The notes under the pieces are model-generated. The model was not told the DNA's origin. It made no database searches and saw only the letters and a program-made list of their open reading frames with translations. 34,555 nucleotides of DNA from a virus, in the IMG/VR virus record IMGVR_UViG_3300025132_000137, positions 1-34,555 of that record; one strand, written 5' to 3'. Positions 10,478 through 33,912 of the stretch are shown piece after piece. Made by a program: the position numbers and the translations under genes. The stretch's first letter is position 1, and each line of letters opens with the position of its first letter.

Positions 10478-10513
10478 TAGTATAATATAATAAAAATAAT
10501 TGATACTGTAAAA

Positions 10514-10930
10514 TTATTTTGCTAGTTTTTCACTTAACCAATCTAATGGGATTTCTTTATTTGCCCACAATATTTCATGTTTTTCACAGAAATCTGCATA
10601 AGTTGTTTTAGAACCTTTTCTTATTTTTCCATTTGGATTTTGAAATACTATTCTAATATCTAATTCTGGGTGTTGTTTTTTTATTAGTAGGTGTTTTTTA
10701 CGGTCTTCTAATACCCATCTACCCTTTGTTTCAATGAGTATACCGTTTGGTAGTGTAAAGTCTACTGTATATTTATGGTGTGTTTCAGGCTTTACATAAT
10801 CTATAACTGTTTTTTCGTATTCGAACTTCGTCTTTGATTCTTTTAACTGATCCGCAACCTTGTGTTCAAAACCTGACCTGTATCCATGCTTTATAGCATT
10901 GGATCTGGCCTTACTTATTCTTCTTGCCAT
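10514..10930 (-). CDS. T7 endonuclease I-like Holliday junction resolvase
   Basis: A 138 aa protein whose catalytic pattern matches phage T7 endonuclease I (gp3, 149 aa): E22 in SGFEHKVADQL, D57 in KYTVDFTLPNG, and E67-x-K69 in IETKGRW. T7 uses E20, D55, E65 and K67, so the spacing is identical with an offset of two. The N-terminus is basic (MARRISKARSNAIKHGYRSG), also as in the family. The enzyme forms an intertwined dimer and cuts four-way junctions and other branched DNA using two metal ions. In a T4-like phage it would take the debranching role that gp49 (endonuclease VII) has in T4. An AATAGGAG site lies before the ATG. It is the first of three DNA-metabolism genes, 12 nt after the fibre gene stop. 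Confidence 0.93.
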   Translation of the reverse strand: MARRISKARSNAIKHGYRSGFEHKVADQLKESKTKFEYEKTVIDYVKPETHHKYTVDFTLPNGILIETKGRWVLEDRKKHLLIKKQHPELDIRIVFQNPNGKIRKGSKTTYADFCEKHEILWANKEIPLDWLSEKLAK

Positions 10931-13876: not shown

Positions 13877-13893
13877 ATCATGACTAACCTATC

Positions 13894-15117: not shown

Positions 15118-15133
15118 TGGTTATTCTCCTATA

Positions 15134-15805
15134 TTAGTACATTGCCTCTTCTAAGATATTACTACTTAGATTTTCTTTATTAACTGTAACAGTGACAGTA
15201 ACGACTCCACCAGTTTCATTTCCGATAATAGTTATTGTAGCCGTTTTTGTTTCAATTGGTTGAGGCTTTGCAACTACTTGGAACCTTCTTCCAACTATTG
15301 AAATAGACTTAGTTGAATCACCAGCAAAGTCAGCCACAGTAGGATTATATCTTGAATCTATTCCTCCACCTGGAGCAACGTTAAGATAACAAACATCTGA
15401 ATCAGATAATATAGCAGTATATCCGTATGTTGCATTTCCATTGGCAAAATTAGTTGTTGTAGGAGATATTTGGGCATTTTGTCCTGCACTAGTTAAAGTA
15501 AGTGCTGTTGGAACAGCAGTAACTGTTGGCATTCTTGCAATATTTTTTGGTAACGTTACTAGCTTGTACTTACAAACTTGAGTTTCGTCCGGTACAGCTT
15601 CAACTAATGGTAATGCTTCAATAGCTTGTCCATAGTAATTACTACCTAAAGAGTGATTAACATCCCATAAGTTATAATCTATTTCATCATCTGCTAATGC
15701 AAACTGAGTAATTTCAAAAAATTCAGAACCTTTAGCTAAAAGTTCTCTACCCTTTTTTGTTAAGATTGCGTCTACCGTAATTGTTGTTTTGTCTAAATAT
15801 CCCAT
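15134..15805 (-). CDS. conserved phage structural protein with C-terminal Ig-like region
   Basis: 223 aa. The N-terminus (MGYLDKTTITVDAILTKKGR, then ITQFALADDEIDYNLWD) is a block I recognise only as recurring in marine phage structural clusters, without an assigned function. Residues about 95-215 are rich in alternating beta-type sequence (TVTAVPTALTLTSAG, TATITIIGNETGGVVTVTV) consistent with a bacterial Ig-like fold. Small size and position between the wedge protein and fibre proteins suggest an adaptor or connector. It is preceded by a 54 nt gap with an ATAGGAG site and a copy of the ATATTTATAT motif, so it may start a transcription unit with the fibre genes. Confidence 0.7.
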   Translation of the reverse strand: MGYLDKTTITVDAILTKKGRELLAKGSEFFEITQFALADDEIDYNLWDVNHSLGSNYYGQAIEALPLVEAVPDETQVCKYKLVTLPKNIARMPTVTAVPTALTLTSAGQNAQISPTTTNFANGNATYGYTAILSDSDVCYLNVAPGGGIDSRYNPTVADFAGDSTKSISIVGRRFQVVAKPQPIETKTATITIIGNETGGVVTVTVTVNKENLSSNILEEAMY

Positions 15806-15831
15806 ATTATTGCTCCTATAATTTATTTCAT

Positions 15832-15841
15832 ATATAAATAT
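15832..15841 (-). promoter_or_regulatory. putative promoter element ATATTTATAT upstream of the 223 aa gene
   Basis: On the minus strand the 10-mer lies 26 nt before the ATG at 15805, inside the 54 nt gap 15806-15859, with ATAGGAG between. It is flanked by further AT (gatATATTTATATAtga). No hairpin terminator is seen in this gap. Confidence 0.4.
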
Positions 15842-15859
15842 ATCTTTAAGATGATTTTA

Positions 15860-18800
15860 TTAACTTCCTCGGTTAAAGTTTCTACCTCTTGGTGCTGGTG
15901 TTGCTCCTCTTAAATTTTGCCCAGGGGGTTGTTGAAATGTTCTACCAACCGGTGCTTGTTGTTGTCTTATTGCTAATTGCTGTCCTATACCTTCACCAGC
16001 AGTTAATAATTTTCCGTCTGCATTTTCATCAGCTGCCACGTATTTGAATGGACTTACATCATAATATTCTACAACAGGTCCACCATCAACTGTTTGTGCT
16101 GATTCCATATTAAAGTCTGAACCAACTAATTTACAGCCATGCCAGTAAAGATTTTGTAAAGCTGTTTGTTTGAAATCTTGGTATTCAGCTGATTCACTTA
16201 AACTATGACTTGGCATAGAACCAGAAGGAATACTCGATCCTTTATAATTTATGTGACCAGTTCCTCCTAAAACAGTAGGATTACCCCAGTTTTGTATGTG
16301 TCTTCTTGGAATAGCTTTACCCAATGATTGACTAAATTCAGATGCAAAATAATATAGTTGCCTATATCTCTCAAAAGATTTTCTTGATTGACTTATAAAG
16401 GGTACATATTGTTCTGAAGTATGTTTTCTATTTAATCCATATCTAACATATCCATCAGTTACGTCTGGAGCTGAAGAAGCTGTAAAATTATCATAATTGT
16501 ATCCATGAGGACCGTGTATTCCTGGATGAGGTGGAGTATGAATAGTCATTCCCCATGCATCTCTACGATAGTATGCATTCCAAACTCTAGCACCAAAAGG
16601 GTCTACTCCGGTACCTGTCTTTTTTGGAAATTCTACTGTTGTATGGATATATCTACTTCCATATTCTTTTACAAAATAACCATACTTATCATCCCATTGA
16701 ATACCGCCCTCAAATTCTCCAACTGTTCTATGGTCTAAAGACGCTAATATCTGTTTATTAGATTGAGGCTCATCTGGTATTGTTTTAGTTAATTGATGTT
16801 GTGAATGAGATGGAGTAAACATAAAGCCACCTTCTCTTCTTCCTAATCTATTAGAACCGTTTCTATGAATATTAGAACCACCCTTTAATCCAGTGTATAT
16901 AAATGGTCCTCCTTCACCAGCACTATAACCAGATAATGATGCAGATTCATATGGAGCAATATAAGCATCCAATATAGTCATATCATTAGCTGGCTTTTCG
17001 TCTACATTAACTTTATATCCAACCTTACTTGCACTAGGATATTTTAATATTCTAGGCCTTTCTAATAGGTGAGGTTTAACTAATAAACCTACTTGTCCTT
17101 TTGCTCTTGCAGGTATTAGTTGTCTAACAGTTCTAAATAATGATGCATCAAAGTATCTTAATATTCTTAGGAACTCGAAGAAATTCGGGTTTCCAAGGTG
17201 TTTTTTCCAATAGTGGTTATTAAGCCTTATCAATTCTGTATATTTTTTATTGTATGTATCTCTAGGGTCTCCAACAAAATTATCAAAGTCAAAAGGACCT
17301 AATTCTGAAGCTATATCTAAATCTATTTCATCTGTTGGAGAGAAAAATACACCAAGTTTATTTGAGTCTAATGGATTTCTATCAAATGAACTTATTTCTC
17401 TTTTCTGTATTGGATGTAGGTCTCCTCTTAATTTATTATCTTCTATTCTAATTTTTTCAGAGTAATAAGTTGGACCAATAGACCTAGGCATTAGGGTATA
17501 ATATCTCTCTTCCTCTTCGCTATACCCCTTATTTCTTCTTGCAGTATTTGTTAAATCATCCTGAGATAAATGTTCGAACCCATTTAGATAACCTTTAGTA
17601 GGCAAAAACGGTGTACCACTGGATGTTTGGAATCTAGACCTACCGTATGGATGGCTAGAAGACATTAGTAAACTATGTGAAACTGGGTATCTTAATAAAT
17701 CTGCACCCATTGACCATCTAACTAGTAATTCATCATAAGAACCAGTTATATTATTTGCAGTTATAGATGTTGGTGATTGAACATGATACGTAAATGAAGA
17801 TTCAGATAGTGGTGTTTGCCATAATCTAAATTCTTGTACTGACCCTGAAAAACCTGATATAGGGTTTGGTGCACCATAATGGCTTCCACTTACTGCTAAG
17901 AAATCATCTCCTGCATCTGATCCAGTTGCTCCTCCTAAATAGTGCCTTAGTGTTATTGGAAACTTAGAATCTATTATAGGTAATGTTGATGAACCAGAAA
18001 CAGATTCAAAAGAACCCCATGCCCTGTTATAACTTCTATTAGGTTCTCCTAAAGAACCAGATATATCTAAGCTTGCACTAACGGCCCAATTTATTCTACC
18101 AAATCTAGAATAATCAGACATTTTTTTACAGAAAAGATCGTATCTTAAATCCTGTGCTTCATGGTCAAGTAAATTATTAGAAGATGTAAATGCATACCCA
18201 GTAATTTTCTTAAATCCTGGTTCTGTTCTTGTAAGCATTACACTCCACCAATCATTATCGTATAATGGCGCCCATTCAGTAGATGCTGTTATATACTTAT
18301 GGTCTCCTCTATGGCCAAATGAACCAGATCTTAATCCAAATACCATTCTTCCATACACACTACCAGAATCTTTTGCAACATATGAACTAGTGTGTTCCAT
18401 CCACACAGCAACACTACCACTATACGTATTCCAAAGTACCATGTCATGTTTATTTTCTTTTTTGTCAGGTATATTAAACCTAACTTGCATAGTATTTGGA
18501 TAACTTATTTTATTATTTGAACCCGTTACAGGTGACCATGAACCTGTTACGTTTGAACTAGGTGTAAGATTTAATGAATAAGAAAATCTATCATGTATGT
18601 TTTTTGAGTGTCTTCCAGGTAATTTTTGAGGTCCACCATACTCATGTATTTTTAATATTGTTGAAGGTAAACCGTAAGCGCTTATTACACTTCTAATACT
18701 TTCTTCAGTACCCTTTGTCTTTAGTATATGTGGAAGATTATTTAACATTCTCTTCCAAAGCTCTTTTGCTATATCGTCTTTAGAAATAGGGTCTATCCTT

Positions 18801-20725
18801 TGACTATTTGAAGCAGATGTAGGTCTATCTCCTTGAACACTAAATACAGACTGTGTGGCTGTTCCAACAGTAATTGTTGGCGTTGCGGTTGCAGATAAAT
18901 CTTTAGAATCTCTAACCCTTACAAAGGCATTTCCAACACCTAAATTTGATATTGACGGAGTAGATGTTAGATATGAATTATTAGTTGGAGCCCCTACATT
19001 ATACCATTCATAACTATATGGTGGTGTTCCTCCATTTATTCCTGTTACAGTTACCTTTCCATTTTGTAAAGGAGCAGTTGATGTTTGCTGTACAGATGCT
19101 GTAAACTTAAGGGTTTTGTCCCAACTTCCACTAGCAGTTATACCAAGATTATAATCCCATATAGTATCAAAGTCAAAGCTTTGGTATGGTTTCCACCCAA
19201 ATGATTTTAATACTGGTTCTAATAGTTCTTTTGCAATACCTTTATTTATTTTATGTTCTCTAGAATGAATATCTAAAGCGTGTTTAATATATAGATAGTG
19301 TTCATCATAATGGTCAGCAACCATGTTTACAAAATTAACATATTCACTATTTTCTTCTGAAAGAGCTATGTGTCTTGGTATCAATTTTTCTAGATTATTG
19401 TCATTAAACATATCATATCTAGATGCAGAATATAATAGTCCAGTATTATAGTAATCTCCAGTAGGATTATCAATTTGACCATACCACTTTAGTACATCTG
19501 CAGATTTTACTGGAGCCTGTACATATGGATAAGCCGCATTTAATTTTGGCCATGAGAATGGTATAAATTCACCAAAAGAATTACTAACATATGATTGAGA
19601 AGTATTATATAAATGTGATTCAAGCGGAGTAAATGCTCCTATAAGTTCATTCTTTTTATTTTCCCACTTTAATTTATTTGATTTGTAGAATAGGGATCCA
19701 GTTGCTCCAGCACCAGAAAGACCTTCTAAGTCTGACGATACTCTATTTATGTTTGCATCATAGTTTTCTATCTGTAGTAATTTGTACTTAAAATTCTCTA
19801 ACTTGGTTACCATTGAACCAAAGTGACATACATTCTTAAAACCATCATAAACGTCATCACCAATATGTTGAGGTATATCAAAATCAATATTTATTTTTAC
19901 ATCACCATAACTACTACTGTATAGTTTTCTAAGTAATATTTGTTGAGTTTTAGTATCACTACCCTCTAATAAGTCTGCTTCACTTTTCCATCCTGTTGGG
20001 GTTGGTTTATCTTGTGTATAGGCTAGAGAAAAATCTGGAGGAGCTAATTCATTTGAAAAATATGTTTTAGCATTTATAGTTAACTTAATATCTTCTACAA
20101 CTGATTCACATACTTGTTGTACAATCCAACATTCATCTCCATCTTCCAAAGTATCTGGAAGAGGTTCATATAACTTAAAGATTATTGAGTGTGGTTCACG
20201 TGGATAGGCCTCATAGTCCATAGCAAAATTAACTGCTAAAGCTAATACGTCTTGGCCAAAGTTTAAGTGTATATCCGGCCACCAATCATGTCCAGATAAA
20301 ATTGAACCTTCCATTCTTTCACCAAATGACATGAAGTCCCGTCTTAATTCTGCATTAATTGACCTAGGCCTTAATCTTATCTCTTTTCTATCACCGGATA
20401 TTTCATCAATATATAGGGTTTCATCTGGACTACCAACAAGTTTTCTCATGAAATTATACTTGACACCAAAGGTACCAGTATTATAACCCATTCTCCTAAT
20501 ATCACCATGAATATCTATTAACGTAGAAGGAGCCCTATTTTTTGTTGCCTTTTCGCCTATCTTAAAGTCTACACCGTAATTACTCTCTAATACGTTTTCG
20601 CCGCTATATATGTGAAGTTCTAGGCAGTCCTTAAATCTAGGGTCACCAAAATTAGTAAATATTGGTTTTGACCTAAGTAATTTTAAGTCTTTTTCTTCGT
20701 ATGAAGGTAATCTTTCTTCTGCCAT
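15860..20725 (-). CDS. baseplate wedge protein, gp7/gpI-like, with SprB-like and LamG insertions
   Basis: 1621 aa, directly following gp25 and gp6 and two accessory genes, where contractile systems usually place the gp7/gpI wedge subunit. Supporting stretches: residues 460-525 (helical, EYVNFVNMVADHYDEHYLYI onward), 648-690 (KELWKRMLNNLPHILKTKGT, then IRSVISAYGLPSTILKI), which resemble tail protein I sequences, and a late block FFEFLRILRYFDASLFRTVR then LIPARAKGQ. Between the first two, at about 543-620, sits a SprB/PKD-like module (GGTPPYSYEW ... ISNLGVGNAFVRVRDSKDL). A LamG-like region follows at about 710-1010, ending in GFSGSVQEFRLWQTPLSES. The tail end is Gly/Gln/Arg-rich. An AGGA site precedes the start. 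The wedge role is inferred from order and partial resemblance; the added domains probably decorate the baseplate or touch the host surface. Confidence 0.72.
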   Translation of the reverse strand: MAEERLPSYEEKDLKLLRSKPIFTNFGDPRFKDCLELHIYSGENVLESNYGVDFKIGEKATKNRAPSTLIDIHGDIRRMGYNTGTFGVKYNFMRKLVGSPDETLYIDEISGDRKEIRLRPRSINAELRRDFMSFGERMEGSILSGHDWWPDIHLNFGQDVLALAVNFAMDYEAYPREPHSIIFKLYEPLPDTLEDGDECWIVQQVCESVVEDIKLTINAKTYFSNELAPPDFSLAYTQDKPTPTGWKSEADLLEGSDTKTQQILLRKLYSSSYGDVKINIDFDIPQHIGDDVYDGFKNVCHFGSMVTKLENFKYKLLQIENYDANINRVSSDLEGLSGAGATGSLFYKSNKLKWENKKNELIGAFTPLESHLYNTSQSYVSNSFGEFIPFSWPKLNAAYPYVQAPVKSADVLKWYGQIDNPTGDYYNTGLLYSASRYDMFNDNNLEKLIPRHIALSEENSEYVNFVNMVADHYDEHYLYIKHALDIHSREHKINKGIAKELLEPVLKSFGWKPYQSFDFDTIWDYNLGITASGSWDKTLKFTASVQQTSTAPLQNGKVTVTGINGGTPPYSYEWYNVGAPTNNSYLTSTPSISNLGVGNAFVRVRDSKDLSATATPTITVGTATQSVFSVQGDRPTSASNSQRIDPISKDDIAKELWKRMLNNLPHILKTKGTEESIRSVISAYGLPSTILKIHEYGGPQKLPGRHSKNIHDRFSYSLNLTPSSNVTGSWSPVTGSNNKISYPNTMQVRFNIPDKKENKHDMVLWNTYSGSVAVWMEHTSSYVAKDSGSVYGRMVFGLRSGSFGHRGDHKYITASTEWAPLYDNDWWSVMLTRTEPGFKKITGYAFTSSNNLLDHEAQDLRYDLFCKKMSDYSRFGRINWAVSASLDISGSLGEPNRSYNRAWGSFESVSGSSTLPIIDSKFPITLRHYLGGATGSDAGDDFLAVSGSHYGAPNPISGFSGSVQEFRLWQTPLSESSFTYHVQSPTSITANNITGSYDELLVRWSMGADLLRYPVSHSLLMSSSHPYGRSRFQTSSGTPFLPTKGYLNGFEHLSQDDLTNTARRNKGYSEEEERYYTLMPRSIGPTYYSEKIRIEDNKLRGDLHPIQKREISSFDRNPLDSNKLGVFFSPTDEIDLDIASELGPFDFDNFVGDPRDTYNKKYTELIRLNNHYWKKHLGNPNFFEFLRILRYFDASLFRTVRQLIPARAKGQVGLLVKPHLLERPRILKYPSASKVGYKVNVDEKPANDMTILDAYIAPYESASLSGYSAGEGGPFIYTGLKGGSNIHRNGSNRLGRREGGFMFTPSHSQHQLTKTIPDEPQSNKQILASLDHRTVGEFEGGIQWDDKYGYFVKEYGSRYIHTTVEFPKKTGTGVDPFGARVWNAYYRRDAWGMTIHTPPHPGIHGPHGYNYDNFTASSAPDVTDGYVRYGLNRKHTSEQYVPFISQSRKSFERYRQLYYFASEFSQSLGKAIPRRHIQNWGNPTVLGGTGHINYKGSSIPSGSMPSHSLSESAEYQDFKQTALQNLYWHGCKLVGSDFNMESAQTVDGGPVVEYYDVSPFKYVAADENADGKLLTAGEGIGQQLAIRQQQAPVGRTFQQPPGQNLRGATPAPRGRNFNRGS

Positions 20726-20737
20726 TATTATCTATTC

Positions 20738-22120
20738 CTAAGTTCTATCTATTCCAGAAAAGTCTTGAGGTAATCCTCTAGCTGCTCTATGTTCAAAGTA
20801 TTCAGAATCACTTGCAAAAGTATATGAAATTCCTCCTGGCGCTGAGAATGATATTCTAGAAGATCCAGCTGGTTGTGAATATTTTCCACCAACAGTTCTA
20901 GTAACAGCGTCTGCTGCTGAAAGTTCACCGTCTATTCTCTGAACAGGATTTTCCTCATCTCCTTGAGCTGACTGTATAGATTGTACAGCTGAACCAGGGG
21001 TTGTATCTTCTACCCAAGAACCGTTTATATAATTTAATAAAACCCATCTACCTTGACTAGGTAAGAAATCAAAGTAAGGATCGAATCTAGAAACATTTGC
21101 GTCATGTCTTTCATCTCTTATAAAGTTTCCTGTTGGTACGTATACAACAGTTGCATCTGTACCGTCAGCGTCTCCTCCAATTGTTTGTGGTTCTAATTCT
21201 TTTAATAATCCACCAAGTACATTTATAAAATATGACTTTGAAGTCCTCGTACCTTTTTCATTACTTACTTCAAGATGGTATCTACCTCGATGTTGCAATT
21301 GCGCGTTTTGTATTCTTAAAACAGGCCCAGTTGAAACTACCTGATCTCTAGCTTTTCCAATACCATCAGCATTAAATTTCCAAGTAAATGTTAAACCACC
21401 CCTAATCCTAGTGTTATTTTCGTTTCTATAATTAAATGCTCTAGACATCAATACTATTGTCTCATTTGCTGCTATTTGTAAAGATGGTTCACCTATTTCA
21501 GGCAATACTTGTATTCTATATCCATCACTGTATTGTCCATCTAATGTTCCAAATCCAGGATAGCACTGAACAGTTTCTATTATTGGTGCTTCTTTAGGAC
21601 CAAGTATTGCCTTAGAAACCTGTCTTAATTGATTTATTGCTGTATCTACTACCTCTATATATTTTCTAGATTCAAAGACATGTTTTACATTTGGTACAAC
21701 ATATGGTTCTGGGCCAGCAGCAACTGTTTCTGGACTAGACATTATTACACCAAACCTATTTCTATTTGCTTTAGTTGTTTGACTAACACTACCATCAGAT
21801 AGGTTTTGAGACAGTCCACCAAAACTACTATACATGCTATCACGAGTTTCATATGTAGCCTCATTTTCTCCTGTTTGATTAAAATCAGATTCAATCTGAA
21901 CAGCGCCATCATAAGGTGTTACCATATCTTTTGTAGATATAAAGCTTACATCATTGGTTTCAGAAGGTTTTCTAGATATTTTTGCTGGAGAGTCTCCTGT
22001 ATAATATGGAGATTCTCCTCCAGAAGAATATTTACCCATTGTTTTTATCTTGGGCTTAGTCATATTTTTACTGTAAGTTAGCTTAGAAGCCTTTGTAGTT
22101 TTCTTCATTCCATAAGCCAT
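20738..22120 (-). CDS. structural protein with an immunoglobulin-like domain
   Basis: 460 aa. Residues 1-125 are polar, basic and probably disordered (MAYGMKKTTKASKLTYSKNM and Ser/Gly-rich sequence). At about 208-302 an I-set Ig-like fold is visible: LTFTWKF, then VLRIQNAQLQHRGRYHLEVS with the typical G-x-Y of strand F but no disulfide cysteines, then SYFINVLGG. The C-terminus (from about 310) is unrecognised. Ig-like domains are common on phage tails and capsids, where they bind surface sugars weakly. The gene starts 4 nt after the previous stop with a GTGAG site, and ends 12 nt before the wedge gene, so it should be co-expressed. No T4 equivalent is assigned; it could occupy the position of an accessory wedge or short-fibre attachment protein. 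Confidence 0.7.
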   Translation of the reverse strand: MAYGMKKTTKASKLTYSKNMTKPKIKTMGKYSSGGESPYYTGDSPAKISRKPSETNDVSFISTKDMVTPYDGAVQIESDFNQTGENEATYETRDSMYSSFGGLSQNLSDGSVSQTTKANRNRFGVIMSSPETVAAGPEPYVVPNVKHVFESRKYIEVVDTAINQLRQVSKAILGPKEAPIIETVQCYPGFGTLDGQYSDGYRIQVLPEIGEPSLQIAANETIVLMSRAFNYRNENNTRIRGGLTFTWKFNADGIGKARDQVVSTGPVLRIQNAQLQHRGRYHLEVSNEKGTRTSKSYFINVLGGLLKELEPQTIGGDADGTDATVVYVPTGNFIRDERHDANVSRFDPYFDFLPSQGRWVLLNYINGSWVEDTTPGSAVQSIQSAQGDEENPVQRIDGELSAADAVTRTVGGKYSQPAGSSRISFSAPGGISYTFASDSEYFEHRAARGLPQDFSGIDRT

Positions 22121-22124
22121 AATT

Positions 22125-23309
22125 TTATCTCACAACCTTAAATGTATAATCTGAATTATAGTATCTTTGTATTGTTGGTGATTCTAATGAACCACTTATT
22201 ACCTTAAATACAAAGCCATACCTTCTTTCTGCATAAAACTGTTTCATCCATAAATCAAAATAATTTCCTTGACTATCACAACTTATCACAGTGCTAGAAG
22301 TATTAAATGGTATTACTATTTCGTCAGTTGTCATGTCTTTTACAGCGTAATAAGAAGTACTAGGCATATACTTTACTGCTAATTCTGCTGAAACAGTATC
22401 ATATGTTTTTGTAGGATATTTTTCTCTACCAACAATTCTAAATCTTTCTCTACTATCCTTATTATAGTTTTTTCTTTTATTTTTAACATAGACTATATTA
22501 TCTTTAGCTATATCTAATGGAGATAAACCTCCAGTATTAAATGAAGAATCTGGCCAAGTAACTGCTAGTTTTGGTTGGTAAACAGTATGTGTTTCTGTTG
22601 AAAAGTATTGTAAGTGTCCATATGGTCTTCCATTTTTTTCTTCATTTGTTTCTATGTCTGATGGATGAGATTGGTGGGCATTTTTTCTAAATACAATAAA
22701 GCCTTCGTTTGGATTTGTACCATTTAACCAATCTTCAACAATAGGTGTAACGTTTATTTTTACATCTGTTTGTTCATAGTCAAAATCTTGGGCGCAAGTA
22801 TACACAATGTTGTTTACTGAACCGGTAAACCATGTACCTCCACCACCAATCGTGGCAAATGACCCAGTAGTATTACCAGGAGAATATGATTCAGTTGCCC
22901 ATGTATTACCAAAATATTCTTTACCATCTCTGTACTTCCAACTTACACCTTCTTCTTCAAAAACTAATGCACCACTATTTGATAATTTTTTAGTTTGTGT
23001 TCTACCCTTACCCATTTCCCATGATTGAGATACTGGATATGCTTCTAATCCATATTTATAAGCTAATCCTTTTGCTTGCACAGTGTATAAACAAAGAGAA
23101 TATGTTGCGTTTGTTATTGAACCATTTACAACTGATCGTGATATTTCACCTAAAGGAAACTTAATTAGTATTCTAGAGTTAAGTATATCAGCAGTACTAG
23201 ATGCTGAAACAACCTTTTGTATCTCTAAAATCTCATCAATTCCAGAGTTAAGGCTTTCTGACCTTTCATATATTGTTGCATCTTTTTTTGCCGTTATAGA
23301 GTAATACAT
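22125..23309 (-). CDS. baseplate-associated protein with DNRLRE/CBM96-like domain
   Basis: 394 aa. The N-terminal half has the hallmarks of the DNRLRE/CBM96-type beta-sandwich: DATIYERSESLNSGIDEILE at 10-29, a following SRILIKFPLGEI, and later INVTPIVEDWLNGTNPNEGF with IVFRKN. In bacterial surface proteins this fold binds polysaccharide or acts as a stalk. The C-terminal 125 residues (NIVYVKNKRKNYNKDSRERF to the end, including CDSQGNYFDLWMKQFYAERR) form a second, probably virion-specific domain. It begins after an AGGAG site, 9 nt after the gp6 stop. Position next to gp6 suggests a peripheral baseplate component. Domain call moderate; role inferred. Confidence 0.68.
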   Translation of the reverse strand: MYYSITAKKDATIYERSESLNSGIDEILEIQKVVSASSTADILNSRILIKFPLGEISRSVVNGSITNATYSLCLYTVQAKGLAYKYGLEAYPVSQSWEMGKGRTQTKKLSNSGALVFEEEGVSWKYRDGKEYFGNTWATESYSPGNTTGSFATIGGGGTWFTGSVNNIVYTCAQDFDYEQTDVKINVTPIVEDWLNGTNPNEGFIVFRKNAHQSHPSDIETNEEKNGRPYGHLQYFSTETHTVYQPKLAVTWPDSSFNTGGLSPLDIAKDNIVYVKNKRKNYNKDSRERFRIVGREKYPTKTYDTVSAELAVKYMPSTSYYAVKDMTTDEIVIPFNTSSTVISCDSQGNYFDLWMKQFYAERRYGFVFKVISGSLESPTIQRYYNSDYTFKVVR

Positions 23310-23318
23310 TTTTATCTC

Positions 23319-25202
23319 CTAGTATGTTACGGTTTTACCACGAATATCTATTGCTGGATACTTTATCTCAAATATTGCTGGATCTTGAGAAGGATAAACA
23401 ATTTTATTTTTAGTTGCTTCTTGTATATTATAAAAATTACCAGAATAACCAGATGCAGCATCATGCTTACAATATACGTTTATATCTTGAACAGTTTGTA
23501 CGCCTTCTATTCTATCTAACTCAGTTGCAATATTTGCTAAAAATATAGGCTCATTAAATTGCCATCTGGTAATATTAAATATTTCATTTATTTTACGATT
23601 ACACCTCAATAATACGGTATTGTTGTTGTGGCCAGGTAAGGTTATTATAGAATAATCAATACCTAAGTTTATAATAAACCCATCCTTTATATTTATTGCA
23701 TCTGTTAATATTCTAAACTTACTTAGATAATTTCTAACATTTTCCTTTGTTGTTGGATTAGAAGGGGTCAATTGACCAAATCTATTATACGATAAGACAT
23801 ACAAGTTTAATGCCAACGGATTTTTTTGCTCAACACCAGTTTCAGCATTTGTCTGTTCATCTGGTATAATAAAAGCCTTTGCAATGTTTCCAAACCTAGA
23901 TGGCATAGAATATACTCTAGATACAAAATCTTCTCTAGTTACAGTTCTATTTTGAGCAGCATAAAAGCCCATTGCATTTTGTCTTATTTCATCAACAGTT
24001 TCTGAACCTTTACCTCCAGTTGCAGGCACTGGATTATTAACGGCCAGTGATTTTTTTGTAAATTGAACTGTTGCACCATTTAATCCATCCTGATCCAGGG
24101 TAAACGCTACAGCAGAAATTTCTCTAATTGTTCCAGCTCTAACATTGTCCTTTAATCCTCCACCGACAACATACTTAAACTCCAAAGTAGTATTATTGGG
24201 GGCTTGTCCATATGCTCGCGTAAACATAGCGTTAGATGGATCCCAAGCATTATCCATAGCAGAAACATTTCCATAAGGCAAATGCATTCCCATATTATTA
24301 GGGTTTGGAATTATTATTTCATCAGCAACATTAGAACTACCAGCACCAAAACAAATTTTTGTCCTTAGGTCAGGTAATACTTTAGTCTGAAATCTCCTTC
24401 CAGTTTTTCTTATCTTTAATAGATAAGGAGTTTCTTCTTTGAATTCAGCAAAAAATGGGTCTATTGTTTTAGTGTTTCGAACCTCTTCATAAACAAAATT
24501 TTGAGATAAATAGTCTACCTCATACCATCTATTGCCGTCTGGGTCTCTACAATCTACAATTTCAGTTATATCTTTTTCTTCAAAAACTATTTCATCATAT
24601 TTTTTAGGTTCTTGGAAAGTAAATTTTTTATATCTTATTCTTCCAGAACGGGCCTTTACATTTTTTTTAAGTAGATATGTTTCAGGATTACCATTTGCAT
24701 CTATCTTATATACTGAAACATCTGTTGGGTCAAGAGAACTAGAAGTTCTAAAATCTACTGGAGCTAATGTGTAAAACTGATTTGACCCAGGATCTGAGCT
24801 ATCAGCCTTTAATCCTTCTTTTACAACTGGAGCATATCTCCAGTCTGGAGCAGCTGTTATTCCTGTTCCAGCAGCTGGTATCAAAATAAATAAATCTAAA
24901 TCAACTGATGAAGGAGCAGTTGCTATTGTCTTATATCCAAAACTTTCAGCTATATCTGAAACATTAGATCGTTCTTGTGCATGTAATAGTAAACTTTCTC
25001 TTAACTGATTATCTATGTAAAATGAAAGAACATCTCCAACATAGGCAGACATTTCAATAAACATTTGGCCTGGAGATGATTCATTAAAATCATTACTAAT
25101 ATCTGGGAAGTAGGTTTTTGCATAAGAGTTTAGTTTATCTTTGAAGCCCTTAAAATCTTTATTTAAGTAGTTTAATTTTTGTGTTTGTAATTGTTGTCCC
25201 AT
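23319..25202 (-). CDS. gp6: baseplate wedge protein gp6 (baseplate J-like)
   Basis: 627 aa, close to T4 gp6 (660 aa). The N-terminus matches gp6/baseplate-J proteins of marine T4-like phages: DFKGFKDKLNSYAKTYFPDI, then SSPGQMFIEMSAYVGDVLSF at 42-61, YIDNQLRESLLLHAQERSNV and ESFGYKT. The central family segment GSETVDEIRQNAMGFYAAQN with RTVTREDFVSRVYSMPSRFG spans about 399-437. The C-terminus is a beta-rich domain with GINLG-like turns. In T4, gp6 dimers form the inner ring of the baseplate wedge with gp25 and gp53 and drive the change of conformation. The start lies one base after the gp25 stop and is preceded by AAGGGA inside gp25, indicating coupled translation. Confidence 0.92.
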   Translation of the reverse strand: MGQQLQTQKLNYLNKDFKGFKDKLNSYAKTYFPDISNDFNESSPGQMFIEMSAYVGDVLSFYIDNQLRESLLLHAQERSNVSDIAESFGYKTIATAPSSVDLDLFILIPAAGTGITAAPDWRYAPVVKEGLKADSSDPGSNQFYTLAPVDFRTSSSLDPTDVSVYKIDANGNPETYLLKKNVKARSGRIRYKKFTFQEPKKYDEIVFEEKDITEIVDCRDPDGNRWYEVDYLSQNFVYEEVRNTKTIDPFFAEFKEETPYLLKIRKTGRRFQTKVLPDLRTKICFGAGSSNVADEIIIPNPNNMGMHLPYGNVSAMDNAWDPSNAMFTRAYGQAPNNTTLEFKYVVGGGLKDNVRAGTIREISAVAFTLDQDGLNGATVQFTKKSLAVNNPVPATGGKGSETVDEIRQNAMGFYAAQNRTVTREDFVSRVYSMPSRFGNIAKAFIIPDEQTNAETGVEQKNPLALNLYVLSYNRFGQLTPSNPTTKENVRNYLSKFRILTDAINIKDGFIINLGIDYSIITLPGHNNNTVLLRCNRKINEIFNITRWQFNEPIFLANIATELDRIEGVQTVQDINVYCKHDAASGYSGNFYNIQEATKNKIVYPSQDPAIFEIKYPAIDIRGKTVTY

Positions 25203-25203
25203 G

Positions 25204-25662
25204 TTATAAATCCCTTATGTTTATCACAACTTCTTCTTCGTCTATAGTGTTATTTACTAATCCAATTGTTAAGGAAACAAATATTCCATGAAATCTATCA
25301 ACTAAATTTCCTTCTCCAGTTTCTGGTATTTTAACATCCAATTTTTTTATTACTATATATGGAAGCCAAACCTCTACAGCTTCTCTTATCTCTGTTCCAA
25401 CTGCATCTCTTAAGACCTGGTAATTTGGTTCAAATAAATAATCCTGTAGATTTGTACCAAATTGAGGGTGGTTTACCCTTTCACCTTTTCTAGTTAGTAA
25501 TAAATTTTTTAGATTTGTAATTGCAGCGTCTATTGATAAAAATGTTAAGTCAAATAAAGAACCCTCACGTGTATTAAATGGCAAAGATATACCTAAAGCT
25601 ACATCTTCTCCATCAATTGCTGGAGTACTAAAAATTTCTCTATCTGGACCGTACTTTGGCAT
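25204..25662 (-). CDS. gp25: gp25-family baseplate wedge / sheath-initiator protein
   Basis: 152 aa; T4 gp25 is 132 aa. The family core is clear: ISLPFN followed by SLFDLTFLSIDAAITNLKNL and LLLTRKGERVNHPQFGTNL (56-72), DYLFEPN, and the helix AVGTEIREAVEVWLPYI. GPW/gp25 proteins sit at the inner baseplate, bind gp6 and start sheath polymerisation through the same kind of strand-swapping seen between sheath subunits. They are the most conserved baseplate protein of contractile systems. An AGAGGA site precedes the ATG, 3 nt after the previous stop, and gp6 follows directly. The gp25-gp6 pair fixes the identity of this region as a contractile-tail baseplate cluster. Confidence 0.95.
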   Translation of the reverse strand: MPKYGPDREIFSTPAIDGEDVALGISLPFNTREGSLFDLTFLSIDAAITNLKNLLLTRKGERVNHPQFGTNLQDYLFEPNYQVLRDAVGTEIREAVEVWLPYIVIKKLDVKIPETGEGNLVDRFHGIFVSLTIGLVNNTIDEEEVVINIRDL

Positions 25663-27078: not shown

Positions 27079-29508
27079 TTAGAAATCATAACGATCAAAA
27101 TGGTTTTCTTCAAGTTCATCAATCTTTGCCTGTATCAACCTAATATAATTTTCGTTTGTAGGAGATATTTGAGGGTTTTGAGCTTGAGGAGAAACATCAT
27201 TACCATCTAAGAAGTTTACACCTGTACCTTCCTCCCAATACTCATCAATATTTTCTATAGCCTCTTTAACATAGTCGGCCGATGGATCGTATCCTGGAGG
27301 GGCAACCATTTTATAACCTTCATCTTTTCGCAATACGAAATAATAATCAGCAGGCTCAGAATATATTGTCGACCTTATCTGACTTTTTGTATACGATTTT
27401 TCCTCTATTATGAATCCTTTGTATCCAGTTGGATTTTCCGTTTGTTCTGGATCAGGTTGAGGGGTTGGATTAGGTCTAGTTGCTTGTGTCCCAGCATTTA
27501 CCCTTTTTCTATAGTCTTCTGGATCTGCTGGATAGAAATTAGTTTTAGCGTTCCTGTCTCTGTCATATCCACCAATAAATGTTACGTTTTCATATTCATC
27601 TGCTATTTGTTGTAGCATGTCGTTGAAGTTTAATCCATTCCTACTATTTCTGTTATCACCAATACCACACAGTTTAACAGTACAATTTAGGTTTTTTAAG
27701 TCGTCTAATTGCATTTTAATAAATTTAATGTCATTAGATGTAGCGCCATTATTTCCTGCTCCTCCACCACCTCTCAACGTAAAGGCGTTAATCATTTGTT
27801 CTATGGTTTGAGATACATTTAGTTGAGATTTTGGTACTACTAATTCCCTATAAAAACGCTTATCTTTAGGTCCTGGCGGAGTTCCTTCATATGGCTTAAA
27901 CATTCTCTGTCCATCAGCAAATGTTCTGTTCCAGTCATGAAAAGTATACTTTCCTACAGTGTTTTGCTGTTCGTTACCTCTTGCTATTTGAGCATCAACT
28001 CGATTAAGATAGCTTCCTTCTCTAGCTCCAAGACCCAGTATCATATCACCCACCCATTCTCTACCGTGTTTTGAAACAGAATATACCCCTTCTCTTGCTG
28101 TTGTTTCATAAACATCGTACGATATTATTTTATTATTGGCTCTTGGGTTAAGGTTTGCCGTCAAGTGAACAACACCAGGCTTAAAATCAACTGTGTGAGC
28201 TATTAAACCACTGCTAAGAACAACATTTTTGTCTCTAAGCTGGTCTTCTGGATAGTCTCTTATAAATGCAGCAACTGAAGCAGGAGAGGCTAGATATTTA
28301 CTAGTACCAAATGGTCCATCAGGGTGGTCTGTTATTTTTCCTGTTCCAGGCCTATTTGCTAACTTGTGTGCAATTGCGTCTCCAAATATATAATCCTTAA
28401 TTTCACTACCATCATCATTAGTTTCTGGACACACCTTGCAGTCTCCTTTCTCGTCTCTTTCAGGTATAGTTCCATCAGGGCACTTTTCACAAGGTGTTTT
28501 TTCTTCTTCTACTATTTCATCCTGATTATCATTTGTATTTACCTGTTCTCTATCATCAACGTTTGGTTCATTATCGCCGCCTAGTTCCTGTTCTTTAATC
28601 ACCTCTTCATAATTTAATTCTGACTTGTTTTGTTTTTTAGCTGTTGGGGTATGGTCATATGAGTCCCACCTTATATTATCTCCGTCTTTTGATATAATTT
28701 CTATAGGTATTATTTGGGTACAAGCAAGTACAACAATACCACCATCATTGTTAACATCCTCTATCTTGTAGTCTCCACCAGGAGTTGGGTCGTGGTCATC
28801 ACTTATTATTGTTATTGGGTCTCCATTTTCTCCAGTATTAGACCACCAATTCTTATATTCTGCATTTTTGACAGTACTACCCATTCTAATACTGTGGCCA
28901 CATCTACCCTCAAGTATTATATCTCCCTCGTATGGAAAAAGTCTCTGTACCTCTTTTTCTTCAAATATAAAACCTAATTCAACTGGTGGATCAGGTTGAG
29001 GCCTGTTTTCTGAGCCTGGGTTTGATGTATACTGTCCTGAAGGATTACAGTCTTCTTCTTCAGATGTACCATCTCCAATCCTATTAAATTTATAACTAGC
29101 TCCTGGTAATTGATTGTGATTTACATCTTGCCATATGTTTAATGGTGGTAAATAATACATCTCTTCAGACTTATTATCCCTTTGAGCACCACTACCTAGA
29201 GCAGAAACTAATTGAACAGTTTCTCCAATAAGGGGTGGTATATATATTCCGGCTCCAAAATATGGATTGTAGTAATTCAAAGTACTTATGTCGCTATTAA
29301 ATTCTTCTTTAAGTCTTCTAGCTTTTACAGAACCAACAATTACTTTAAGCTCAGGATTATAATCTGGATGTTGGTCATTCAAAACAACATCAACAACCTC
29401 TGCAGTAGAAAACCTAGTTAATCCAACCTTTTGTTGTTTTCTTACATCTACATTGTTACGCTTATTACTACGCTTACTTTTATTTCTTGATGTCTTAAAC
29501 CTTGCCAT
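27079..29508 (-). CDS. gp5-like baseplate hub paralogue A with degenerate SGNH-like domain
   Basis: 809 aa. Residues about 35-135 are the OB-fold block shared with the next two genes upstream (VVDVVLNDQHPDYNPELKVI, PPLIGETVQLVSALGSG, YYLPPLNIWQDVNHNQLPG). Residues 150-275 are the second shared block (CNPSG, LFPYEGDIILEGRCGHSIRM, PITIISDDHD, IEDVNNDGG). A linker holds two CxxC pairs at 340-360. Residues 370-670 resemble a phage SGNH hydrolase: FGDAIAHKLA at 375-384, NVVLSSGL at 428-435, VKLCGIGD, then VTFIGGYDRDRN and NFYPADPEDYRKRV. The usual GDS serine is Ala, and the DxxHP stretch reads TNFYP, so catalysis looks lost. A long insert lies at about 440-590. The last 115 residues share a module with paralogue B. 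The ATG is 6 nt after the previous stop, without a strong ribosome site. Confidence 0.8.
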   Translation of the reverse strand: MARFKTSRNKSKRSNKRNNVDVRKQQKVGLTRFSTAEVVDVVLNDQHPDYNPELKVIVGSVKARRLKEEFNSDISTLNYYNPYFGAGIYIPPLIGETVQLVSALGSGAQRDNKSEEMYYLPPLNIWQDVNHNQLPGASYKFNRIGDGTSEEEDCNPSGQYTSNPGSENRPQPDPPVELGFIFEEKEVQRLFPYEGDIILEGRCGHSIRMGSTVKNAEYKNWWSNTGENGDPITIISDDHDPTPGGDYKIEDVNNDGGIVVLACTQIIPIEIISKDGDNIRWDSYDHTPTAKKQNKSELNYEEVIKEQELGGDNEPNVDDREQVNTNDNQDEIVEEEKTPCEKCPDGTIPERDEKGDCKVCPETNDDGSEIKDYIFGDAIAHKLANRPGTGKITDHPDGPFGTSKYLASPASVAAFIRDYPEDQLRDKNVVLSSGLIAHTVDFKPGVVHLTANLNPRANNKIISYDVYETTAREGVYSVSKHGREWVGDMILGLGAREGSYLNRVDAQIARGNEQQNTVGKYTFHDWNRTFADGQRMFKPYEGTPPGPKDKRFYRELVVPKSQLNVSQTIEQMINAFTLRGGGGAGNNGATSNDIKFIKMQLDDLKNLNCTVKLCGIGDNRNSRNGLNFNDMLQQIADEYENVTFIGGYDRDRNAKTNFYPADPEDYRKRVNAGTQATRPNPTPQPDPEQTENPTGYKGFIIEEKSYTKSQIRSTIYSEPADYYFVLRKDEGYKMVAPPGYDPSADYVKEAIENIDEYWEEGTGVNFLDGNDVSPQAQNPQISPTNENYIRLIQAKIDELEENHFDRYDF

Positions 29509-29514
29509 ATATTA

Positions 29515-31821
29515 TTAGTCTATTCTTTCACCGTCTTCATAATTATCAATATCGTCTTGAATACTTTCTTTAATTAGTTCTATATCATTTTTTCCTTGAG
29601 AGATTGAACCACGAACCAATCCACTCGACGCCCAACAAACATATTCAAATACAGTTCCCTCTTCATTTTGTTGTGGATGGCCAACTACTAAAGTAGAACC
29701 ATAGTTATCATTCTTTTCCATTATATCATATCCTAAATATTTTTCTATGAATATAGTTTGTGGAGGAGTACCTGATTGGGCTTGAGCATTATCTTGGGCA
29801 GAAGGTATGTCACCTATAGGTAATGAGGATATTGGTTCTGGTCTAGGCTTTGTATCATCTCCAAGAGGAGTATCTCCATAATATAAATTCCAAAGCGTTA
29901 ACGAGTCTGTTGCAGCTTCACTACGTTTTATTTTTGTTTTTTCCCAATCTTTTGCAGGGTCTCTCAAACTACCCTTATGGTAATATGGTTTCTTTTTTCT
30001 ACGAAGAAACGATCCAGGTACTTCAAAGTTGGCAACAACCAAAACAGATATATCTTGTTCGTCTGCTAACTTTACAGTTGAACCCTTTTGTTGTGCTGTA
30101 CCCGCAAATTCTTCTGATACATTTGACTTTCCTCCAGGCGCATATTTTACTGTGTATTCATGTGTTGTCATAGCCTCAAAGGTTGGCTTATATCTAGAAC
30201 TTTTAGTTATTTCTTCATGCCATAAATATGCACACTGAGCAAGTACACCGACTTGAGGGCCAAGCTTAGGACAATTATATGTAGCAGTTCTCAAGGCTCT
30301 ATTGTATGCATCTCTATTATTTGGCCTAGGATTAGATTTTCCATAAGGAGGACCACCTCCACCGTCATAAAATCTTAAGTTTCCTATCAGTGATTGTTCA
30401 ATCCTTGTCCTTCTTTCACCCGTCCACTGTGCTATTCCTACACCTCCAGACCAGTTTGAGTATTCTCCTGGTCCATACTTTTTGCCATTCCATTCTGCAT
30501 CTTGTTCATATACTCCAACACCAACCCAGTTTGATAGAGCAGGGTCTCCTGAATTTCCTCTAGCATGATTTTTAGAAAATCCTGGCCTTGGTACACCTCC
30601 CCACATCTCTAATTCTGCTGCACACTGCTGTGGGTACCCTCCAGTAGTTTTTGCAACACTTCCCATTCCTTCAGAAAGTAAATTACCACATAAACCGGCA
30701 GCTCCGTGAGGTGTTGCTCCATTTTCAACAAAATAGTTTACAACTTCTGCATAAAATTCTGCATTAGGGCTATCTGCAATTTTTTGTACCTTTCTGGTTA
30801 TAAATTCAGTATTTGTCTCTACCTTTTTTTCAACTCTTTCTTCGTCTTTCTTTTCATCCTCTATATCTGATTCAGTTGCATTCTCTTCGTCTTCTACAGT
30901 TTTGTCCTCTTCTTCATCTACGTTATCATCAACTGTGTCTTCGTTTCCTCTATAATCTATTGCAGATTGAATAGTATTATCTTTATCAAATTGTACTTCG
31001 TATGAATCAAAGTTATCTGATGCAGTTGTTATGGGTATTTTTTGTCCCTCACAAAACATTATTACTGCACAATCCCGGTTTATATCTTCTATGTGGGCAT
31101 CACTATCTCCTGGTGTTACATGGCCATTACTTATTATAGTTATTGCATCTCCATTTATTCCTGCCCCAGACCAGTAGTTTGGGGTATCAGCATTTAGATT
31201 AGTTGCTCCAAATCTTATACTTTGGCCAAATCTACCCTGTAATATAGTATCGCCTTCATATGGAAACAGTGGTTTAATTTCTTTTTCTTCAAATGTAAAA
31301 CCTAAGGGTGGCTGTTCTGTACCTTCTCCAGTTTGTTTTTCAGGACCAGGATTAGCTGAATATACTCCAGATGGATTACATTCCTCTGCTTCACTTATAA
31401 TCGATTCTCCCCTAGTAAAGGCTATACCAGGATTTTGATTATGATTTACATCTTGATACACGTTAACAGCTGGTAAATAATATTTTTCCTCTCTAGATTG
31501 ATTAAACTGGCCGGCCTTACTTATTGCAGAAACAAGAAGTACATTTTCGCCTATCAAAGGGTATCCAGCATATAGATTTGGAAGCATTGGATTATACCAA
31601 GATAGGGTTGATGGATCAGTATTAAATCTAGATAATGGTCTAGCCTTTATACACCCAACAATTCTTTGCATTTCAGGATTAAATTCTGGGTGGCTAGGGT
31701 GCATGATAATATCTAAAACCTCAGCTGGTTCAGAAACTTTTTGAACCTGCTTTGTTATATTCTTTCCAGCAGTATTTCTATTGAAGCTGGTTTGGTTTTG
31801 TGTATTACGTGATCTTCCCAT
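29515..31821 (-). CDS. gp5-like baseplate hub paralogue B with phage tail lysozyme domain
   Basis: 768 aa. It shares the OB-fold block (AEVLDIIMHPSHPEFNPEMQ, AGYPLIGENVLLVSAISKAG, YYLPAVNVYQDVNHNQNPG) and the second block (CNPSGVYSANPG, LFPYEGDTILQGRFGQSIRF, ITIISNGH, IEDINRD) with its neighbours. A very acidic linker (about 293-335) follows. Residues 345-545 form a phage tail lysozyme: AAGLCGNLLSEGMGS at 374-388, with E384 as the expected catalytic acid, and GGVGIAQWTGERRTRIEQSL at 459-478. It would cut peptidoglycan glycan strands during injection, like the lysozyme domain of T4 gp5, though from a different lysozyme family. The C-terminal about 90 residues (YLGYDIMEKNDNYGSTLVV onward) match a module in paralogue A. 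The start lies 3 nt after the previous stop, with a TGAG site. Confidence 0.9.
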   Translation of the reverse strand: MGRSRNTQNQTSFNRNTAGKNITKQVQKVSEPAEVLDIIMHPSHPEFNPEMQRIVGCIKARPLSRFNTDPSTLSWYNPMLPNLYAGYPLIGENVLLVSAISKAGQFNQSREEKYYLPAVNVYQDVNHNQNPGIAFTRGESIISEAEECNPSGVYSANPGPEKQTGEGTEQPPLGFTFEEKEIKPLFPYEGDTILQGRFGQSIRFGATNLNADTPNYWSGAGINGDAITIISNGHVTPGDSDAHIEDINRDCAVIMFCEGQKIPITTASDNFDSYEVQFDKDNTIQSAIDYRGNEDTVDDNVDEEEDKTVEDEENATESDIEDEKKDEERVEKKVETNTEFITRKVQKIADSPNAEFYAEVVNYFVENGATPHGAAGLCGNLLSEGMGSVAKTTGGYPQQCAAELEMWGGVPRPGFSKNHARGNSGDPALSNWVGVGVYEQDAEWNGKKYGPGEYSNWSGGVGIAQWTGERRTRIEQSLIGNLRFYDGGGGPPYGKSNPRPNNRDAYNRALRTATYNCPKLGPQVGVLAQCAYLWHEEITKSSRYKPTFEAMTTHEYTVKYAPGGKSNVSEEFAGTAQQKGSTVKLADEQDISVLVVANFEVPGSFLRRKKKPYYHKGSLRDPAKDWEKTKIKRSEAATDSLTLWNLYYGDTPLGDDTKPRPEPISSLPIGDIPSAQDNAQAQSGTPPQTIFIEKYLGYDIMEKNDNYGSTLVVGHPQQNEEGTVFEYVCWASSGLVRGSISQGKNDIELIKESIQDDIDNYEDGERID

Positions 31822-31824
31822 TTA

Positions 31825-33912
31825 TTAACTCATATTATTTTCTGAACCGTATCTATTAGGAGAAGCACTCCTATAATCACCACGTCTAAAATACATATCT
31901 TGTCTTGCAGATACTTCTTTGTCGTCGCTATCACAGCCACCATAAACATATCCATCTAGATAGTATTTACTATTAGGGTCAAATTTATCCTTACAAGCAG
32001 GATAGTATTGATTTAATTTATTACATCTACCTCTACAAGCAGAAACTTTCTTATAATCACCAGAACAGTATATTTGCATTAGTCTCTCAGCATTATAGTT
32101 CGCTTTTTCTGCATTTTCATTTATATAAGCCGGAGCAGAGTTTAGGCAACTCATAAATATTGCGTATTCTCTAGCTGTCTTTGCGCCAAATTTAGGGATT
32201 AGTTCATTTACCTTTTTTCCAAACTTCTTCCACACTGCATCTGACTGTACCTCTCTAGAGTATTCATCTAAGTTTACAAAGTCTCTCATACCCTTAAACC
32301 ACCAATCGTAATTTAGTTCTTTAGTATCTGCATTACATGAAAACTCTACCAAAACATCTCTAGTTACTCTTACAGTTTTACCTGCATTTTTTCCATTGTA
32401 AAATAGGCCTGGTGCAGACTTATAGGCTGGTATTTTTACTGACCTTGGCCAAGCTGCCTCTATAGCAGTCTTTCCAGCTAGTCCTCCTGCACTTGGTGGA
32501 AATACATATTCGTCCATTGCATCGTATAATGTTTTGATTGAACAACCCGTCCAATGTAATATTCCTACCCATGTTTCTCCTCCACGCTTAGATAACTCTC
32601 TATTATATTCTCCTTCCTTAAATCTTGGGTGAGGTACTCCATATTTAGCAAGAAACTTATCATCACCGTCTGTTTTTCCAGGTCTACTGTTTCTAAATCC
32701 AGACATCCAACCTAAATCAGTATAATTTTTACCCAATACTACTGGGGCCAGTATTGAAGCTACCTTTTTATTCCATGGGGTAGCTAATCCGCATGTGTGT
32801 TCATCTGTATTTCCAGGAGGTGGGATTGGTTCATCTTCTTCTAATACCTTATCTACACATTTACCTTGGTCATCTTTTTCTTGTCCTTCTGGACATGGCT
32901 TATCTAAGTCTTGTTTTTTCTCTTCAGATGTAGCATTTCCCGCTGCTTTTGCTTCTTGTTTTGCCTCTTCTGGAGTTGTTGCAACTGGTCCAGGCCTTTC
33001 TCCTGGAAAAGCGTCTGGCGTAGGTGTTTGTGCGTAATCTTCTTGCGGTATTTCTTCTAGAGTCTTTGAATCAAAGGTTGTTTCGTAAGAGTCCCAATTG
33101 TCAGATGGAGGGTTAAATTTTATTGCATTACCCCCAGCTATCAACAATAATGCTCCATCTTGGTCTACATCCTCTATATGGTTCATTTGTTCCTCAGCTG
33201 TCCTATGTCCGTTACTCAATATAAATATACAATCATTTGTGCCTGGCCCAGATGACCATGAATTTGGTGAGGCTCCAGTTTTATTTGTCGAGCCAAACCT
33301 AATACTTTGACCATATCTACCCTCAAACATAACATCCCCTTCATAGGGCTGTAATTTTCTTACTTGCATCTTTTGAAATATTCTTCCTAGAGCTGGCTCT
33401 AAGTCTACGGGCTGTTGCTCTGTTGTTTCTGAACTATATACTCCTGATGGATTACATTCTTCTGCATCTGACTGAACTACTGTTAACATGTTTGCGTCAA
33501 ATGTTGCAGCCGGTACTTGATTATTGTTAGGGTCTCCCCAAGCATTAACTGCTGGTAGGTAATATTGTTCTACCCTAGATGTACCATCTCTACTTGCTTG
33601 TCCAGAAGCTTCAACTAATAATACTATTTCACCAATAAGGGGTACGCCAGCAAATACATTTGGCCATAATGGGTGATACCATTGGCACTGAGCAATCGGT
33701 AAATTAAAGTTAGAGGCTGGTCTTGCCTTTATATCTCCTATTTTTCTATATGGCCATCTTTCTGGGTCATATTCTGGATGTCTAGGGTCTAGAATTACAT
33801 CAATAACCTCGGCCGATTCCCCTAAAGAGGCCTTTGCAGAATCAAATTGTTTAGCAGGGCCTTTTGGGTTTGGAAAACTAGTTCTATTTCTTGATGTCTT
33901 GTTTCTTGCCAT
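31825..33912 (-). CDS. gp5-like baseplate hub paralogue C with unrecognised Cys-rich C-terminal domain
   Basis: 695 aa, the first of the three paralogues in the transcript. The OB-fold block (AEVIDVILDPRHPEYDPE, AGVPLIGEIVLLVEASG, YYLPAVNAWGDPNNNQVP) and second block (CNPSGVYSS, LQPYEGDVMFEGRYGQSIRF, IEDVDQDGALLL) are intact. A linker carries CPEGQEKDDQGKC at 340-352. The C-terminal 320 residues are not a family I know: GGETWVGILHWTGCSIKTLY at 444-463, WWFKGMRDFVNLDEYSREVQ at 537-556, AREYAIFMSCLNSAPAYINE at 580-599, and a Cys cluster at 616-660. GILHWTG is placed like GIAQWTG in paralogue B, so a lysozyme-type cell-wall hydrolase is possible but unproven. The ATG overlaps the preceding gene by 29 bp. 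Confidence 0.82.
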   Translation of the reverse strand: MARNKTSRNRTSFPNPKGPAKQFDSAKASLGESAEVIDVILDPRHPEYDPERWPYRKIGDIKARPASNFNLPIAQCQWYHPLWPNVFAGVPLIGEIVLLVEASGQASRDGTSRVEQYYLPAVNAWGDPNNNQVPAATFDANMLTVVQSDAEECNPSGVYSSETTEQQPVDLEPALGRIFQKMQVRKLQPYEGDVMFEGRYGQSIRFGSTNKTGASPNSWSSGPGTNDCIFILSNGHRTAEEQMNHIEDVDQDGALLLIAGGNAIKFNPPSDNWDSYETTFDSKTLEEIPQEDYAQTPTPDAFPGERPGPVATTPEEAKQEAKAAGNATSEEKKQDLDKPCPEGQEKDDQGKCVDKVLEEDEPIPPPGNTDEHTCGLATPWNKKVASILAPVVLGKNYTDLGWMSGFRNSRPGKTDGDDKFLAKYGVPHPRFKEGEYNRELSKRGGETWVGILHWTGCSIKTLYDAMDEYVFPPSAGGLAGKTAIEAAWPRSVKIPAYKSAPGLFYNGKNAGKTVRVTRDVLVEFSCNADTKELNYDWWFKGMRDFVNLDEYSREVQSDAVWKKFGKKVNELIPKFGAKTAREYAIFMSCLNSAPAYINENAEKANYNAERLMQIYCSGDYKKVSACRGRCNKLNQYYPACKDKFDPNSKYYLDGYVYGGCDSDDKEVSARQDMYFRRGDYRSASPNRYGSENNMS

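Follow-up and report, generated by a model that had tools for sequence, protein, structure and literature searches.

How might a contractile tail, which carries one central spike, use three spike-like proteins encoded in tandem? The question is raised by the window, which is itself a virus record of 34,555 bases. On its minus strand, a 126-aa gene is followed by three paralogs, designated A, B, and C in order of transcription (slots 1, 2, and 3) and separated by intergenic gaps of 3 and 6 bp. Downstream lie a short gene, T, two small genes, and homologs of the baseplate wedge proteins gp25 and gp6, a neighborhood typical of a contractile-tail central spike (Table 1). Six ORFs of 223 to 1621 aa that come after gp6 (10943–23309) gave no PHROG match at 1e-3 and probably encode tail or fiber proteins. 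Beyond the tail genes, at 9557–10930, lie a primase-like gene (phrog_47, E = 5.6e-37) and an endonuclease-like gene (phrog_945, E = 1e-50).

Table 1 Features of the spike locus and adjoining baseplate genes (positions in the window)
Feature	Position	Strand	Basis
Spike paralog A (slot 1)	31825..33912	-	intact ORF, 695 aa; slot-1 orthologs in other trio contigs
A N-block: predicted short helix, OB-fold, first part of beta-stem	33043..33912	-	AlphaFold2 and VIA-align, residues 20-273
A payload: Cys-rich helical domain, invariant GGExWxGILHWTG	31828..32799	-	ten-sequence alignment
Spike paralog B (slot 2)	29515..31821	-	intact ORF, 768 aa; slot-2 orthologs
B N-block	30955..31821	-	sequence homology
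B stretch matching Phage_lysozyme2 (PF18013), phage tail lysozyme	30394..30750	-	E = 7e-9
B C-terminal module, common to C	29521..29766	-	hhalign
Spike paralog C (slot 3)	27079..29508	-	intact ORF, 809 aa; slot-3 orthologs
C N-block	28618..29508	-	sequence homology; Foldseek top match P1 baseplate chain, E = 3.8e-3
C payload: SGNH/GDSL fold lacking catalytic Ser and His	27487..28398	-	VIA-align; motifs
C C-terminal module, common to B	27082..27450	-	hhalign
T gene: putative stem and tip of spike, 129 aa	26627..27016	-	profile match; H-rich tip motif
gp25-like baseplate wedge protein	25204..25662	-	PF04965, E = 3.3e-11; phrog_261, E = 8.4e-16
gp6-like baseplate wedge protein	23319..25202	-	phrog_219, E = 5.2e-14

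A, B, and C have about 285 N-terminal residues in common, at 35–45% identity (E = 1e-50 to 1e-72). The alignment that the initial annotation had proposed as a check confirmed their homology: in blastp comparisons, A and B were 44.8% identical over 290 aa (E = 2.9e-72), B and C 42.0% over 345 aa (E = 5.6e-69), and A and C 35.2% over 366 aa (E = 7.5e-50), with strong homology ending near residue 285–350. All three contain, in the same order, the OB block and the PYEGD...GxSIRxGST...IEDxNxD block that the annotation had described. This shared region, hereafter the N-block, gave no Pfam, PHROG, or PDB sequence match that would assign it directly to a family.

Single-chain AlphaFold2 models of A and C had a moderate mean pLDDT of 65, with most of the N-block at ~70–90. 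Both models begin with a short helix, followed by a strand barrel at residues ~31–119 and more strands at ~194–262, which corresponds to the order expected of a spike, an OB-fold near the N-terminus and then a beta-stem. In VIA-align, central spikes topped the match list of model A, namely those of A-1(L), P1, eCIS, VgrG, P2 gpV, Mu, and T4 gp5, all within residues 20–281 and at Z scores of 5.1–6.0, which are modest, given that a Z below 8 can reflect a common arrangement. The alignment with T4 gp5 spanned gp5 residues 9–439, which extend from the OB-fold to the beta-helix beyond the lysozyme. The single scores are modest; the assignment draws on how densely spikes occupy the highest-ranking matches. 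Taken together, the spike matches and the gp25 and gp6 neighbors make a convincing case that the N-block, as modeled, comprises a central-spike OB-fold and the start of the beta-stem, of the gp5/gpV/VgrG type. The initial annotation had named structure prediction as a way of disproving its reading, and on this count the reading held, with VIA-align and Foldseek both pointing to spike OB-folds. Its description of the proteins as gp5-like also stands; "hub" was used loosely, as the hub ring in T4 is gp27 and the exact term for gp5 is central spike.

Downstream of the N-blocks, the proteins carry three different payloads. The initial annotation had recognized this in reversed order; in order of transcription, A bears the Cys-rich domain, B the lysozyme, and C the SGNH-like domain. 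Its claim that the three diverge completely does not hold, as a C-terminal module of ~80–125 aa (YKGF...I..IDE.IEDW; hhalign probability 96.8, E = 2.8e-10) is common to B and C and absent from A. The tail lysozyme read in B was upheld: PF18013 scored 36.4 bits against a curated cut-off of 28.2 and was also found in slot 2 of two further contigs, L012 and L017. A G-N-x3-E-G motif, containing a conserved Glu, is invariant in nine payload-B orthologs.

The SGNH fold in C was likewise supported by structural matches. Residues 371–674 of the model aligned with TesA (Z = 10.9) and OatA (Z = 10.5), SGNH proteins made up nearly all of the best 50 matches listed, and the payload is predicted to adopt the three-layer SGNH architecture. 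The catalytic Ser of the GDS motif is missing, the motif reading GDA in the window and GDA, GGY, or GAS in orthologs, and the block-V His (DxxH) is absent from every payload-C sequence that covers this block. With Ala replacing this Ser in the window and the block-V His likewise absent, payload C is probably not a standard hydrolase; it would be a probably non-catalytic SGNH fold that may bind envelope glycans. The earlier idea of a spike with three activities is not borne out on this point.

Payload A is possibly enzymatic. It gave no match to Pfam, NCBIfam, or PDB sequences. hhalign yielded no link between it and lysozyme B, no link was found to a neighbor of the Mel-JY01 spike-like gene annotated as a chitinase, and a GH46-like motif found no support. 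Model A also matched a BFVD protein named GH19 (E = 3.9e-7); this match may rest on the N-block alone, and we did not use it to identify the payload.

Where, then, are the tip and the remaining stem encoded? Spike-like proteins of Microcystis phage Mel-JY01 (WWT39504.1), the 484-kb phage LR756508, and Flavobacterium phage immuto, all annotated only as hypothetical protein, belong by sequence to the same N-block family; they differ from A, B, and C in being present in one copy and having no recognized payload. In Mel-JY01, LR756508, and many IMG/VR contigs, the N-block is followed in the same chain by a further conserved block. A profile restricted to these C-terminal blocks of single-chain spikes matched T at E = 2.3e-31; matches of T to VgrG stems were weak (E = 0.27 and 1.1). 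Close to the tip, T proteins carry H-rich motifs (HNHTH or THPTP, followed by GP) that resemble the metal-binding tips of gpV-type spikes. Judged by its sequence, T putatively makes up the remaining stem together with the tip, a part that single-copy relatives have in one chain with the N-block. The T gene downstream of C is a fourth part of the spike system, one that the initial annotation had left out.

In every surveyed locus covering both genes, a large payload on the N-block goes with a separate T gene downstream, and the fused genes of the surveyed loci have no recognized payload separating the N-block from T. The pattern runs in one direction only: T is likewise a gene of its own in certain loci whose N-block gene lacks a payload. 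At L034:5698-6234 and similar loci, a stand-alone gene for an M15 peptidase (E = 1.7e-14) separates the N-block gene from T; in other loci the peptidase is fused.

The N-block is encoded in at least 559 IMG/VR stretches. We found the trio in ten contigs, counting the window, always in the slot order 1-2-3 and with one T gene each; two of the ten contain almost identical viruses, and one was read as two separate pieces. The same layout in ten contigs rules out an assembly artefact. As the trio represents one lineage, its constancy amounts to one event followed by retention and not to ten independent cases. In the tree of N-blocks and their homologs, an analysis also suggested in the initial annotation, the slots separated: slot 1 formed a clade (support 100/98), as did slot 3 (99/96), and slot 2 was nearly a clade, its monophyly being unrejected (AU p = 0.18). 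The duplications are thus older than the divergence of the trio viruses. With dN/dS values of 0.03–0.30 in all slots compared, none of these is decaying. A search for slot-specific fixed residues found none, an uninformative result.

Payload exchange on this scaffold is supported by two cases. In L017, an A-type payload sits on a slot-3 N-block, and joining that N-block to slot 1 (AU p = 0.0009) or to the contig's own slot-1 gene (p = 0.0022) was rejected. Long branches leave the relation between the two A-type payloads of L017 uncertain; the module shared by B and C had been suspected in this slot-3 protein but went undetected at E < 1. At L047:2955-6867, a recent and independent tandem pair outside the trio clade has N-blocks with 90% DNA identity over 514 bp and unrelated payloads, the second of which has no Pfam match and looks amidase-like by eye. 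Payloads have accordingly been exchanged on duplicated N-blocks at least twice, and the slot tree together with these two loci supports the history of duplication and subsequent payload exchange that the initial annotation had outlined. In relatives, payloads on the same N-block family include VanY (2e-13) and M15 (8.7e-9) domains, and one gave a weak C39-like match (1e-4, below cut-off); on these matches, wall-active domains appear to be the usual cargo. The only relative found in a bacterial genome collection, L105 (SHWW01000027.1), comes from a Flavobacteriaceae MAG. Together with Flavobacterium phage immuto, it gives a hint that some members of the family infect Bacteroidota; the hint does not bear on the virus in the window in particular.

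How would these parts assemble? With somewhat better than even confidence, we propose that four genes encode one contractile-tail central spike, an A:B:C heterotrimer on a T homotrimer, with three payloads as exchangeable modules. Each of A, B, and C would contribute one N-terminal chain with its own payload hung on, and T would supply the remaining stem and tip. One copy each of A, B, and C would form a pseudo-threefold heterotrimer on the T homotrimer, and every virion would bear all three payloads. On tail contraction, the spike would pass through the outer envelope, payload B, as a tail lysozyme, would cut peptidoglycan, and the payloads would help breach the wall so that the tail tube can pass. 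Duplication of an N-block gene gave rise to the trio. That the heterotrimer is obligate, its threefold symmetry broken and its payloads exchanged between fixed slots on a separate tip trimer, we regard as only slightly more probable than not. One spike per tail, one operon, a single tip gene, and conserved slots together favor this 1:1:1 stoichiometry. To our knowledge, the structurally known phage spikes are homotrimers, which counts against the heterotrimer, and literature searches of incomplete coverage turned up no description of a heterotrimeric central spike in a phage.

The known systems resemble parts of this arrangement. In T4 gp5, too, the OB-fold, stem, and lysozyme all lie within the spike, with the payload between the OB-fold/early stem and the remaining stem. 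In T4, proteolysis downstream of the lysozyme divides gp5 into gp5* and gp5C, whereas here the two putatively corresponding halves are separate genes. T4 has one gene and a homotrimer, whereas the window has three N-block genes with different payloads; the lysozyme here belongs to PF18013 and follows the first stem block, whereas that of T4 precedes the stem. The gp25 spike of Anabaena phage A-1(L) has an N-terminal helix, an OB-fold, and a beta-strand stem (PMC10966104). It and P2 gpV share the order of helix, OB-fold, and beta-stem with the N-block but differ in being payload-free homotrimers encoded by a single gene.

By analogy, the nearest precedent for a mixed spike is the Vibrio cholerae T6SS, in which a VgrG1/VgrG2/VgrG3 heterotrimer was reported as required (PMC8668125). 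There, as in the window, one system has several spike paralogs with different C-terminal domains: the three VgrG proteins carry different extensions, one of them peptidoglycan-acting. It differs in being a secretion system whose genes carry their own hub and stem, whereas the window has a separate tip gene and its three paralogs in one tandem. Serratia VgrG1 and VgrG2, in contrast, were found to stay unmixed (PMC4924876); nature thus offers examples of both outcomes.

The Serratia result, the homotrimeric state of known phage spikes, and the purifying selection on all three N-blocks would suit a different reading, in which A, B, and C are each homotrimeric on the same T tip, each particle has one payload type, and the virions of one burst differ. 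We consider this rather unlikely, and equally so its interpretation as bet-hedging over hosts or envelope states: with one central spike per tail, homotrimers only would leave most particles without lysozyme, and they would need neither one operon and a fixed slot order nor three long-kept N-block clades. Less probable still is that only one paralog is the structural spike, with the other two located at a different site in the virion or active on the wall as free proteins at infection or lysis. One N-block gene is enough for a tail in relatives, and the peptidase is a separate gene in the L034-type loci; however, A, B, and C all keep a complete, constrained N-block of OB-fold and stem, and a free enzyme needs neither. 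Alternative spikes with stage- or host-specific expression, also raised in the initial annotation, are very improbable, as nothing specific was found in their favor and the three genes lie adjacent on the same strand, 3 and 6 bp apart within one operon, before one tip gene.

Beyond the initial annotation, the analysis adds a tip gene split from the spike, a phylogeny of the slots, and the swapping of a payload, and with the tip encoded separately, the question of assembly becomes tractable with four proteins. Phage central spikes are treated as homotrimers; the conserved three-gene spike proposed here, an A:B:C heterotrimer on a T tip, would, if true, equip one puncturing device with three different tools, much as V. 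cholerae VgrG does. The family would then offer a natural series of exchangeable payloads, lysozyme, VanY, M15 peptidase, SGNH, and others, on one scaffold.
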